From NCBI RefSeq assembly GCF_000744825.1, contig NZ_JQMR01000001.1, positions 1,358,501 to 1,422,500 of the forward strand: a stretch of DNA of 64,000 nt, given 5' to 3'. This DNA is from Carnobacterium mobile DSM 4848 (GTDB taxonomy: Bacteria; Bacillota; Bacilli; Lactobacillales; Carnobacteriaceae). Under the pieces are notes generated by a model. The model was given only the letters and a program-made list of their open reading frames with translations, did no database searches and was not told the origin of the DNA. Both the position numbers and the translations under genes were made by a program. Positions 10,209 through 59,126 of this stretch are shown here, one piece after another. Positions within the stretch are counted from its first letter, which is position 1. The number at the start of each line of letters is the position of its first letter.

Positions 10209-12164
10209 ATGATTTTATTACAAGTTCAGCATGTCGCGCGCTATTTTGGAGCAGATGTGCTTTTTGAAAACATTTATTTAGAAATACAAGAAAATGCTAG
10301 AATAGCTTTAGTAGGACGCAACGGTGCTGGAAAATCTACTTTATTAAAAATGATTGCAGATGTTGAACAGCCAGACGCAGGTCAGATTATTAAAAGTAAA
10401 AACGTGACGATTGGATACCTGGCACAAAATACCGGCCTAGACTCTGCCAGTTCTATTTGGGATGAAATGTTAAAAGTCTTTGAACCGGTGATCCAATTAG
10501 AAAAGGAAATGCGCCAGACAGAGATCCAACTGGGCGACCCAGAGCTGCTGGCAGATGAAACCCTCTATCACAAAACATTAGCCCGTTATGATCAGCTTCA
10601 ACATGATTTTAGAGCAGCCAATGGTTTCGGCTATGAAGCTGAAATTCGTTCTGTTTTACATGGTTTTCGTTTTTATGAAGAAGATTATGCAAAAGACATT
10701 CGCCAGTTATCTGGAGGCCAAAAAACTCGATTAGCTTTGGCTAAACTATTATTAGAAAAAAGAGATTTATTGATTTTAGATGAGCCGACTAACCATTTAG
10801 ATATCGAAACGTTAAATTGGCTTGAAAACTATTTGCAACTTTATCATGGAGCGTTATTGATCGTTTCTCATGACCGGTACTTTTTAGACAAAGTCGTTAA
10901 TGAAGTTTATGAAATCAGCCGACAGAAAATAACCCATTATAAAGGCAATTATTCCAAATATTTAACTCTAAAAGCTGCACAACTGGAACAAGAATGGAAA
11001 GAATATGAGAAACAACAAACAGAAATTGCTAAATTAGAAGATTTTGTTAACCGTAATTTAGTCAGGGCTTCTACAACTAAACGTGCCCAGAGCCGTCGAA
11101 AACAATTGGAAAAAATGGATCGGATGGATCGGCCTCAAGGCGATGAAAAATCAGCACACTTTCGTTTTCAAACCAATAAAGAAAGCGGAAATGTGGTCTT
11201 AACTTTAACGGATGGTGCTATTGGATACAAAGAACACATTTTATCTGCCCCCATTGAATTAGAGATTCGAAAATATGATTCAATTGCGTTGGTTGGTCCA
11301 AATGGAATTGGAAAATCTACTTTGTTAAAGTCTTTGATTGGTGATTTGCCTTTAATTCATGGCAACGAGCAGCTAGGAGCTAATGTTGATTTAGGGTATT
11401 ATGACCAAGAACAAGCAAACCTCAATTCTAAAAAATCGGTGCTCAATGAATTATGGGACGAGCATCCCACTACACCTGAAAAAGATATCCGCAGTATTTT
11501 GGGTAGTTTTTTATTTACAGGCGATGATGTAGAAAAAAGTGTTTCCAGCCTAAGCGGAGGCGAAAAAGCGCGATTAGCTTTAGCTAAATTATCCTTGCAC
11601 CGTGATAATTTTCTAGTATTGGATGAACCGACTAACCATTTGGATATCGACAGTAAGGAAGTCTTGGAAAATGCGTTGATTGATTTTGACGGTACCCTTT
11701 TATTCGTTTCTCATGACCGTTATTTTATTAACCGTTTAGCTACAGCGGTAGTCGAATTATCTGAAGAAGGAAGTACCCTTTACCTAGGGGATTATGATTA
11801 TTATATTGAGAAAAAAGCACAGCAAGAAGAATTGCAACAGCTAGCAGAAGCGGCCGAACAAGACAAACAAATTGGCAGAAACGCCTCTTTAACAAACAAA
11901 AACCATCGGGAAATAAATAAAGAGACGCAAAAAAAAGTTCGTCAATTAAGCAGAAGAATCGAAGCACTTGAAAGTGAAATGTCTGAATTGGAACAAGCGA
12001 TCGAAGCGATTGAACTTCAATTGACCGAACCTGAAGTTTTTGGAGATCATATCCAGGTTCAAGAACTCAATGGAAAATTGACGGATCTCCAAACAAGAAA
12101 TGAACAGCTCTTAACGGAATGGGAAGAAAAAAGCATCGAACTAGAAGAACTTGATGAGCAATAA
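10209..12164 (+). CDS. ABC-F family ATPase (YdiF-like)
   Basis: This is a soluble protein with two ABC domains and no membrane part. Domain 1 has Walker A GRNGAGKST (near residue 37), signature LSGGQ and Walker B LLILDEPTNHLD. Domain 2 has GPNGIGKST (near residue 365), LSGGEK and FLVLDEPTNHLD. A charged inter-domain linker (about residues 250-320) and a C-terminal coiled coil (about 560-651) complete the ABC-F layout. ABC-F proteins act on ribosomes; at 651 residues with a C-terminal coiled coil it matches B. subtilis YdiF. A GAGG site precedes the ATG. Nothing indicates antibiotic-resistance specificity. Confidence 0.9.
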   Translation: MILLQVQHVARYFGADVLFENIYLEIQENARIALVGRNGAGKSTLLKMIADVEQPDAGQIIKSKNVTIGYLAQNTGLDSASSIWDEMLKVFEPVIQLEKEMRQTEIQLGDPELLADETLYHKTLARYDQLQHDFRAANGFGYEAEIRSVLHGFRFYEEDYAKDIRQLSGGQKTRLALAKLLLEKRDLLILDEPTNHLDIETLNWLENYLQLYHGALLIVSHDRYFLDKVVNEVYEISRQKITHYKGNYSKYLTLKAAQLEQEWKEYEKQQTEIAKLEDFVNRNLVRASTTKRAQSRRKQLEKMDRMDRPQGDEKSAHFRFQTNKESGNVVLTLTDGAIGYKEHILSAPIELEIRKYDSIALVGPNGIGKSTLLKSLIGDLPLIHGNEQLGANVDLGYYDQEQANLNSKKSVLNELWDEHPTTPEKDIRSILGSFLFTGDDVEKSVSSLSGGEKARLALAKLSLHRDNFLVLDEPTNHLDIDSKEVLENALIDFDGTLLFVSHDRYFINRLATAVVELSEEGSTLYLGDYDYYIEKKAQQEELQQLAEAAEQDKQIGRNASLTNKNHREINKETQKKVRQLSRRIEALESEMSELEQAIEAIELQLTEPEVFGDHIQVQELNGKLTDLQTRNEQLLTEWEEKSIELEELDEQ

Positions 12165-12427
12165 GGGAGTGAGACAAAAAGCGTTTAGACCCGAATCTTC
12201 TATCTCGCATACCGTATCCCTAAGCAGCTAAAGCTGCAAGGGATACGGCAACTGGAACGAATAAGCGCAGTATGGTCACACGACAACCGAGCATTTAATA
12301 GAAGCACTTTAAGCTAGCGCCTAAGTGTATCATGTCTGTACGTAGCTAAAGCTACTACAGGCATGACAAAGTGGACGTCGGGTCTGCTTCTTTGAACACG
12401 TTCTAGAATAAACATTCGGATATGCAA
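12165..12427 (+). other. Multi-branched structured intergenic element
   Basis: There is no gene here, but strong nested complementarity. The outer stem pairs AGACCCGA (12187-12194) with TCGGGTCT (12378-12385). The next pairs CTTCTAT (12197-12203) with ATAGAAG (12298-12304). Hairpin A pairs CCGTATCCCT with AGGGATACGG (12212-12248), with an inner AGCAGCT/AGCTGC stem. A small hairpin pairs CACTT with AAGTG. Hairpin B spans 12330-12366 and ends in TAGCTAAAGCTA. A terminator follows at 12428. It opens with GGGAGTGAGACAAAAA, a start I associate with dispersed intergenic repeats of related Firmicutes. It may be a structured RNA or a repeat element. Confidence 0.55.
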
Positions 12428-12455
12428 AGAGGTTGAGACTTTTGTCTCAACCTCT
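12428..12455. terminator. Bidirectional terminator
   Basis: AGAGGTTGAGAC and GTCTCAACCTCT form a perfect 12-bp stem with a TTTT loop, between the convergent ABC-F and tsaD genes. T tracts are short on both sides. Confidence 0.75.
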
Positions 12456-12481
12456 ACTGCTTATTTTTATGGGAATTTTCT

Positions 12482-13528
12482 TTATTTGTTCACTATCTGC
12501 TCTTCAAAACTATCAAAAGTTAAACCAGGCTGTGCATTCAAGTCATAACCGGCAAATTGTTGCCGATTGTACTCTACGTAAGCAGCTGCACCAATCATAG
12601 CAGCATTGTCCCCGCAAAGCGACAATGGAGGGATCAAAAGCTCAACATCAGGCAGTTCTTGCTTCATTGTTGTGATCAATTCTTCTCGCAATCCTTGATT
12701 GGCCGCTACTCCTCCAGCCAAAACCAACTGTTTGACTCCTAACTCTTTTGCAGCACGTATTGTTTTTTTGACTAACACTTCAATTACACTTGCTTGAAAA
12801 CTAGCTGCTAAATCATTTTTGTCTACTTCTTCATTTTTTTGAGCGGTATTATGAACCAAATTGATAAACGCACTTTTTAACCCGCTAAAACTAAAATCGT
12901 AATTATCTTCTTTCAACATAGCCCGCGGAAAATGGTACGAATCTTTTCCTTGATGAGCCATTTCGTCGATCCGCTTACCGCCTGGGTAAGGCAAACCTAA
13001 GACTCGTCCAATTTTATCATAAGCTTCTCCGGCAGCATCGTCTCGTGTTTCTCCAATAATCTTGAAATCTCCATCTTTTTCCATGTACACTAATTCAGTG
13101 TGTCCGCCACTGACGACTAAAGCTAGTAACGGAAAAACTAATGGCTGAATCAACCGATTAGCGTAGATATGTCCTGCCATATGATTAACGGCGATCAAAG
13201 GCAAGTCATGAGCATAAGCCAATGCCTTAGCCGCATTAACGCCGATCAATAAAGCTCCTACTAATCCCGGTCCATACGTTACAGCAACTGCTGATAAGTC
13301 TTTGTAAGAAACACTTGCTTCTTCCATAGCTTCTTCAATACACTGAGTGATTTGTTCAACATGGTGCCGACTCGCGATTTCCGGTACGACGCCACCAAAA
13401 CGCATGTGGCTTTTAATCTGTGACGCTACAATATTAGACAACATTCGTTCTCCGTTTTCGACGACAGCAACACTCGTTTCATCACAACTCGTTTCAATGG
13501 CTAAAATTAAATTTTGTTCAGGCCTCAT
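12482..13528 (-). CDS. tsaD: tRNA threonylcarbamoyladenosine transferase subunit TsaD
   Basis: TsaD transfers the threonylcarbamoyl group to A37 of ANN-decoding tRNAs, with TsaB and TsaE. The 348-residue protein begins with the ASKHA fold [17 protein letters not shown]. The metal-binding histidines lie in the HMAGHIYAN segment (near residue 116), followed by [11 protein letters not shown] and [14 protein letters not shown]. Length is typical. It is the last gene of the tsaB-GNAT-rimI-tsaD cluster, 26 bp after rimI. Confidence 0.97.
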
Positions 13529-37973: not shown

Positions 37974-38220
37974 AAAAAAACGCCTTGAGTTCTATTCAAC
38001 TCAAGGCGCACTTTATGTATAGATTCACACAATTCAGTACCCTTTGTTGATAGTCCTCCACAAATTCATGCCTGAAATTTTGTGACAGTGCTGAACATAT
38101 TCTGTTCAGCCCCAGCATCCAACAGTTTGGCACTGTTAAACACTTCGGCGATTTTCCCTTTCCAACTACTTCATCGTGCCCTCTCACTAGTTGTACTCTT
38201 AAAAACCGCGCCTCTATCTT
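37974..38220 (-). ncRNA. Lysine riboswitch (L-box) with terminator
   Basis: Read on the minus strand from 38220, the leader shows AGATAGAGGCGCGG, AAGAGTA, GGAAAGGGAAAATCGCCGAAG and a later CTGGGGCTGAACAGAATATG stem, which are L-box aptamer core elements in the right order. The leader ends with a perfect terminator at 37981-38008 (CGCCTTGAGTT / AACTCAAGGCG) and a T7 tract, 30 bp before the transporter gene. High lysine should end transcription early. The predicted -10 TATACT (38246-38251) places the start just upstream of the aptamer. Confidence 0.9.
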
Positions 38221-38245
38221 TATTTTTTTTAAAATCTTATCCTTT

Positions 38246-58976: not shown

Positions 58977-59098
58977 AATAAAAAGCTCGAAAGTGAACTG
59001 TTTACCAGTTACTCCCGGGCTTTTGTCCCTCCGTGACACAGAAAAACTGTGCGTTTTCTCTCGGACCAGTCCAATCATTTAGATTGCGGAACCCTAGA
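58977..59098 (-). ncRNA. Guanidine-I riboswitch (ykkC class) with terminator
   Basis: The minus strand reads CTAGGGTTCCG, GACTGGTCCGAGAGAAAACG, ACGGAGGGACAAAAGCCCGGGAG, the conserved ykkC core in order. Behind it, AAAAGC.CG..AGTAACTG pairs with CAGTT.ACT..CG.GCTTTTT to form a terminator whose left arm is part of the aptamer. Guanidine binding should prevent this hairpin and turn on the SMR genes. Confidence 0.95.
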
Positions 59099-59126
59099 AA
59101 ACAATCGATTTGTGCAATTAAATTTT

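Follow-up and report, generated by a model that had tools for sequence, protein, structure and literature searches.

A modular palindromic repeat with a terminator-like end, probably mobile, in Carnobacterium mobile and related lactic acid bacteria

The window analyzed here is a 64,000-nt stretch of the genome of Carnobacterium mobile DSM 4848, in which the region between an ABC-F ATPase gene and the convergent tsaD gene is probably a modular mobile repeat of wide distribution in its long form, namely a ~172-nt interspersed palindrome enlarged by two hairpins. This repeat, denoted A, is in our judgment likely to be a non-coding mobile palindromic interspersed repeat, whose body (~121 nt) is a closed imperfect hairpin, joined through an A+T-rich linker to a terminator-like hairpin at the right end; the two additional hairpins are denoted H1 and H2 (Table 1). 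Copies of A are dispersed over the genomes of trichococci, aerococci, and their relatives among the lactic acid bacteria. The most likely explanation is that A is a non-autonomous mobile palindrome that is tolerated at terminators since it brings one.

Table 1. Parts of the A copy in the window and its neighboring genes, with positions numbered from the first nucleotide of the window.
Feature	Position	Strand	Basis or remark
Whole element A, long form (A + H1 + H2)	12165-12455	+	Further copies in the genome; relatives have the base, +H1, +H2, and +H1+H2 forms
Left end GGGAGTGAGAC, resembling the terminator left arm (GAGGTTGAGAC)	12165-12175	+	Sequence; ends of 68 unique full copies
Outermost conserved stem, 5' arm (partner 12397-12403)	12165-12171	+	Helix 1, 97% of cells paired; changes mostly one-sided
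Outermost conserved stem, 3' arm CACGTTC	12397-12403	+	Covariation alignment; sequence
8-bp stem, 5' arm AGACCCGA	12187-12194	+	Sequence; helix 3, two-sided changes in 3 of 7 pairs
8-bp stem, 3' arm TCGGGTCT	12378-12385	+	Sequence; helix 3
7-bp stem, 5' arm CTTCTAT, all except the first base within H1	12197-12203	+	Sequence; missing in base copies
7-bp stem, 3' arm ATAGAAG, within H2	12298-12304	+	Sequence; missing in base copies
Module H1, 53 nt; hairpin 12212-12221/12239-12248, tip stem 12224-12228/12233-12237	12198-12250	+	Missing in base copies; covariation
Core fifth stem, 5' arm CGAATAA	12258-12264	+	Helix 5
Core apical hairpin, GGTC...GACC in relatives, altered in the window copy	12274-12288	+	Helix 6
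Module H2, 73 nt replacing ~8 nt of the base form; hairpins 12305-12327 and 12331-12365	12296-12368	+	Covariation
A+T-rich linker, body to terminator	12404-12427	+	Sequence
12-bp palindromic terminator-like hairpin AGAGGTTGAGAC TTTT GTCTCAACCTCT; arms 12428-12439/12444-12455	12428-12455	+	Sequence; scan
ABC-F ATPase gene, neighbor	10209-12164	+	Named from sequence
tsaD gene, convergent neighbor	12482-13528	-	Orthologues in all 18 genomes of the family

The element directly follows the stop codon of ABC-F (12164), and 26 nt separate its end from tsaD (12482). An initial annotation had described four nested stems followed by a 12-bp terminator stem in this interval, all of which are present where it placed them. 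The fold was compared with those of dinucleotide shuffles and gave z scores of −6.86 on the plus strand and −8.99 on the minus strand, with none of 200 shuffles as good on either strand. The arms of the 7-bp stem belong to optional modules (H1 and H2), which places this stem outside the conserved core. The terminator-like hairpin contains 12 pairs, six of which are G-C, and the tail following it (ACTGCTTATT) is a weak T tract; the window copy thus possesses the G+C-containing hairpin and T tract of a predicted intrinsic terminator. A simple scan of positions 12000-12700 gave one terminator-like site versus 0.7 ± 0.8 in shuffles, indicating that the count is unremarkable and that it is the perfect 12-bp stem that is unusual. 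A promoter search over the same interval found none above chance. When the whole window was scanned against Rfam at the gathering score, no family was found at the element, and a search of six loci with E up to 1 gave solely microRNA-type, chance-level matches at A, far below the gathering score. The tip AGCTAAAGCT occurs on both long hairpins (12226-12235 and 12344-12353), and the initial annotation was accordingly right about its repetition in the window. Its letters are not conserved, however, since other copies keep a paired stem and a short loop, mostly TAAA or TGAA, with other stem letters. The proposed kissing of the two apices was rejected on this ground.

The suggestion of a mobile repeat family in that annotation is supported, since dispersed copies occur both in relatives and in the genome from which the window comes. 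The window's own genome contains copies at 92% (full, 291 nt), 94% (positions 1-264), and 78%, together with several shorter ones. BLAST located A in 11 of the 18 genomes of the family. Among 395 genomes of the order, 79 gave a match at E 1e-4, many via the terminator alone, and a match over at least 140 of the 172 nt was obtained for at least 24, belonging to groups f1, f4, and f6, with at most two or three matches scored per genome. R2, a covariance model that describes the base form of 172 nt, matched 23 of 29 hand-picked genomes, giving nine matches in the window's genome and a maximum of 52 in genome G376. Genome G004 has six copies that are identical over 172 nt and located in different places; the terminator motif GAGGNTGNGACNNNNGTCNCANCCTC was found at 13 places in this genome, all inside A copies, which shows that a solo terminator of that form is absent from it. 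The copies group by genome in a tree (15 changes versus a shuffled mean of 26.8), for which fully supported branches are few. A copy of G376 and one of Trichococcus palustris DSM 9172 share an identical flank. Plasmid records searched with the base element gave one match (Aerococcus tenax CP127381), phage records gave none, and an exact scan of IMG/VR for the left end returned 0 stretches. Longer composites, in which A is joined to H and to a second A-like part, and a further H host were observed in T. palustris and G376 (L059, L337, and L338), and a T-box leader-like match at L002 (1245-1453, minus strand; 74.6 bits against a gathering score of 93) adjoins another A copy. No publication on repeat A was found among the titles and abstract openings surveyed, and a Trichococcus genome paper (PMC6950789) searched by word gave no occurrence of repeat, transpos, MITE, or noncoding.

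The location of A relative to genes was evaluated for 64 of the 68 unique full copies, for which both neighbors were available as mechanical ORFs of at least 80 aa; the other four are too close to an edge. Convergent genes surround 26 of these copies, both genes lie on the element strand in 15 and on the opposite strand in 20, and only three copies are located between divergent genes. A gene 3' end is hence faced by 61 of the 64 copies, at a distance of at most 60 nt in 57 and at most 30 nt in 51, and this holds for both orientations; L064, L066, and L181 overlap with mechanical ORFs by 13-20 nt. The background was obtained from gaps of at least 30 nt in four syntenic blocks (the window, G004, G005, and G006), where 39 of 229 gaps are convergent and 44 divergent. 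Convergent gaps are therefore enriched for A (26/64 vs 39/229, p = 1.4e-4) and divergent gaps are depleted (3/64 vs 44/229, p = 0.0036).

Comparison between species revealed what occupies the same sites when A is absent. The window site was read in eight relatives, nine of the 18 tsaD loci being covered in all, and the gap between tsaD and ABC-F holds a plain hairpin-plus-T terminator in five of the eight (G005, G006, G007, G001, and G002); the gene order differs in G004 and G016, and the gap is longer in G003. At the site corresponding to L073 of G004, an unrelated terminator and a copy of another element, B, are present in G000, and a different hairpin is present in G011 at the L135 site of G012. 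At two further sites (the second site of G004 compared with G000, and G009 compared with G010), the plain terminator of the relative is like that of A itself, so that the terminators of G000 and G010 may be remnants of A. G013 and G012 have A in opposite orientations next to one and the same gene end (L110 and L139), and the flank is aligned on that gene's side only. A with H1 is common to two species at the L005/L074 site. All these comparisons are between species, and no transposition event was observed between strains. They are consistent with a process in which A copies would enter, or recombine into, existing intrinsic terminators, and in which the putative terminator of A would keep convergent or successive genes insulated. 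Since A brings its own putative terminator, we propose that hosts tolerate its insertion and that the native hairpin disappears.

The flanks of A were examined for traces of such entry. Direct repeats around the 68 copies did not exceed chance, since 276 of 2000 shuffles scored at least as well, so that no target duplication was detected. The left and right flanks were found to be more complementary than their composition predicts, with an initial run of 2.72 versus 1.77 (0 of 5000 shuffles), 3 of 5000 over 12 nt, and 50 of 5000 when only G/C pairs are counted, a result that rests on a boundary redefined after looking at the first one; with the boundary 2 nt off, the test was not significant, as shuffles scored equally high in 402 of 2000 cases for inverted and in 112 of 2000 for direct repeats. 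Such complementarity fits the residence of A inside older terminator palindromes, but termination-shaped A and T tracts could also contribute to the complementarity.

A first alternative is that A spreads through gene conversion or homologous recombination between terminators that resemble each other, with no dedicated enzyme. It is compatible with the location of A at terminators and with the two relatives whose plain terminators are like A's, and the search for transposases also speaks for it. Y1 transposase had no match in seven of 10 genomes, among them the carriers G000, G004, G005, G009, G011, and G013, with matches only in G006, G376, and G213; the IS110-type domain PF02371 likewise had no match in seven of 10 genomes and matches in three. 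However, the relatives have unrelated terminators at the window site and at L073/L023, which offer little homology for recombination. This explanation is hence possible but rather unlikely, though it ranks ahead of the other alternatives considered below.

The question of whether pairing is maintained was addressed by using alignments of the three parts. The base alignment contains 36 distinct base-length rows out of the 68 unique full copies, and 96% of the cells of its 37 pairs are paired; two-sided changes were found in 19 of the 37 pairs, compared with 5.9 in shuffled and 0-8 in slid alignments. The H1 pattern gave 29 matches, 25 of which were aligned, and two-sided changes occur in 10 of 15 pairs versus 5.8 shuffled. 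The H2 pattern gave 59 matches, of which 33 were aligned, four further real copies were left out, and 22 were judged by eye to be chance. Two-sided changes occur in 8 of 24 pairs of H2 versus 4.2 shuffled, while its further pair types are not above shuffles (194 of 500). This excess of two-sided changes indicates that pairing is maintained, and the compensatory changes on which the initial annotation made its structured element depend are present in the core, H1, and H2. They fit RNA and DNA palindromes alike and hence do not discriminate between them.

RNA tolerates G-U but not A-C pairs, while the two are equivalent in DNA palindromes. G-T pairing has been read as a sign of RNA function in a work on REP sequences (PMC3733652). 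We therefore counted one-sided intermediates, G-T versus A-C, in the three alignments (A1-A3) and in a lysine riboswitch control from the same family, for which 27 matches were listed, 20 aligned, and a subset of 13 recounted. The source family of this control is represented in the window itself (38043-38224, minus strand, 128.3 bits), as is a guanidine-I riboswitch (59010-59108, minus strand, 85.8 bits). When distinct pair types are counted, the ratio of G-T to A-C is 19 to 15 in A1, 11 to 12 in A2, and 7 to 6 in A3, giving a total of 37 to 33, compared with 44 to 10 (n = 20) and 31 to 4 (n = 13) in the control; the difference between 37 to 33 and 44 to 10 has a p-value of 0.001, and that for A1 alone is 0.015. 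By cells, the control gives 132 to 16, and A1-A3 give 112 to 24, 45 to 24, and 16 to 12; a cell count limited to pairs that are most often Watson-Crick gives 57 to 24, 9 to 23, and 7 to 11 for A1-A3. The symmetry of G-T and A-C thus holds by pair types but not by cells, which weakens the case for an RNA role. It is not proof against such a role, since neutral decay in dead copies would produce symmetry too.

The initial annotation had offered an undescribed small RNA as one reading, and a structured non-coding RNA, either a small RNA or a 3'-UTR element amplified through its usefulness, would explain the strong fold, the compensatory changes, and the cell counts of A1, while a position downstream of genes would permit its transcription. 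This reading is poorly compatible with the remaining observations, namely the large number of copies, six of which are identical within a single genome, the lack of a promoter above chance and of an Rfam family at the gathering score, and the pair-type counts that differ from those of the riboswitch. Furthermore, in gene pairs of one direction, the body precedes the terminator in the host transcript for 15 copies and follows it for 20, which gives no sign that the body needs to be transcribed. We consider an RNA function of the repeat improbable. For a mobile palindrome, selection may act on single-strand or cruciform folding for mobility rather than on an RNA product.

The two hairpins that distinguish the window copy are modules. 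The common base form does not contain query positions 34-86 (H1) and 132-204 (H2), and all four combinations of their presence and absence were found, in part by sorting with short motifs. Copies that do not have H1 show the junction GAATC/ACTGG (e.g., L014 and L076-L087); the partner TTATTCG of the core fifth stem is missing in the window copy, which has H2 in its place. H1 and H2 are alike in having a 10-bp or 9-bp stem, a small internal loop, a 5-bp stem, and mostly a TAAA or TGAA tip. Model R1, for which H2 was the only input, recognizes H1 at six sites, one of them in the window, with rough E values of 8e-4 to 9.5e-3, showing that the two are related; the duplication of hairpins surmised in the initial annotation agrees with this result. 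R1 also matches the window at 12303-12368, where the window's H2 is itself part of the model. H is a separate hairpin unit that is also carried by two other elements. Element B (~330 nt) has terminal inverted repeats, one end being GGTTCTTTATCGAATTGTGTTGGT, and is located at L018, L025, and further loci of G000 (L016-L023 and L029-L033 in part). Element C starts at about GAAAAGCGGGACAAG, carries H and further optional hairpins, and by eye apparently follows gene stops directly; it occurs in groups f1 and f4, namely in the window's genome (G000; L324-L326, L328, and L329) and in G376 (L334-L336 and L339). By eye, the A body without its terminator was seen inside B-like elements of G013 and G011. 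In G001, where neither BLAST nor R2 found A, L342 consists of H-like hairpins in tandem (~80-nt units).

Element B also bears on the possibility that A is a MITE of the classical type, which depends on a DDE transposase and leaves target-site duplications. Two B copies (L018 and L025) show 8-bp duplications by eye, and ISL3-type transposases were found in five of the eight genomes searched; B is a MITE, perhaps one of ISL3-type transposases. A shares with such elements its non-coding nature, short length, and similar inverted ends. Against this assignment, direct repeats around A do not exceed chance, the ends of A differ from those of B, and no ISL3-type transposase was found in the A carriers G005, G011, and G013, making the MITE reading of A as doubtful as the RNA one. 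IS110-like and IS200/IS605-like elements and group IIC introns are not known to generate target duplications and use hairpin or terminator targets. Mobilization in trans by an RNA-guided or single-strand terminator-recognizing system of these classes would suit the missing duplication and the targets of A, but is the least probable of the alternatives, as PF02371 and Y1 each matched in only three of 10 genomes and Y1 in none of the six carriers named above.

Besides the preferred reading of A as a non-autonomous mobile palindrome, we tentatively put forward a broader scheme, which we regard as possible though not likely. The H unit (~50-75 nt) would itself be mobile and enter A, B, and C (groups f1 and f4) at structural junctions, and A in its turn would enter native terminators and replace them. 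This would amount to nested hairpin-into-hairpin mobility in Bacilli that proceeds without target duplication by an undescribed enzyme or process.

Repeats similar to A were sought in group f2. In 400 kb of two f2 genomes, R1 found no H module and R2 gave one match (G026, E = 0.0002); the G026 stretch matched 16 plasmid records, 15 of which are from Enterococcus. In three plasmid records, the repeat directly follows cbpB (E. faecium), groL (E. faecalis-labelled), and an AraC-type gene. R2 scored weakly on two enterococcal copies, both in the forward sense (E. faecium, 0.0053 in 22 kb; a second named copy, 0.038), and gave no match on L373-L375 at E up to 1. By eye, these repeats, that of G026 included, appear to share with A ends such as GAGGCTGGGACAAAAGCGTTTA, a palindromic body, the motif CCGTTTA, and their position, and the E. 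faecium and E. faecalis-labelled copies have a GTGGGAC/GTGAGAC...GTCCCAC terminator-like hairpin as in the layout of A, whereas their inner hairpin sequence differs. They are probably EFAR, which would be the closest published kind to A. EFAR repeats are palindromes found in enterococci (De Gregorio et al. 2009, as mentioned in PMC3733652). A dispersed repeat of ~160-175 nt whose copies are 73-77% identical was also observed in G026 (L361, L369, and L370), partly common to the A-like repeat of L366.

Three further kinds of repeats were compared with A. The pneumococcal BOX is a modular interspersed repeat enriched between convergent genes, whose inner boxB is present or absent and can be repeated (PMC3049150). 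BOX and A are both modular with an optional inner unit, as found for A above, and both favor convergent gaps; BOX, however, has terminal inverted repeats and target duplications, while A has a built-in terminator-like hairpin and no detected duplication, and its module is also found in other elements (PMC3049150). SPRITE of pneumococcus resembles A in being terminator-like near gene 3' ends, with target duplication not established, but consists of an 18-bp duplex plus a T-rich tract, with AAAA/TTTT at its ends (PMC3049150), whereas A has a separate palindromic body (alignment columns 1-121). REPs are, like A, palindromic and mostly downstream of genes, and are often combined into larger structures; they are 20-40 bp, carry GTAG/CGTC tags, and are often linked to RAYT, whereas A is larger and six of its carriers have no Y1 match (PMC3733652). 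A thus probably belongs with the EFAR, BOX, and SPRITE kind of repeats, and is unlikely to be a small RNA.

The comparison of G-T with A-C against a riboswitch control provides a simple check where covariation fails to split RNA from DNA palindromes, and cautions against labelling such repeats small RNAs. The H module shared by A, B, and C makes hairpin-into-hairpin movement a testable question. If mobile terminators take the place of native ones, these lactic acid bacteria would depend in part on a selfish element for the insulation of their genes.
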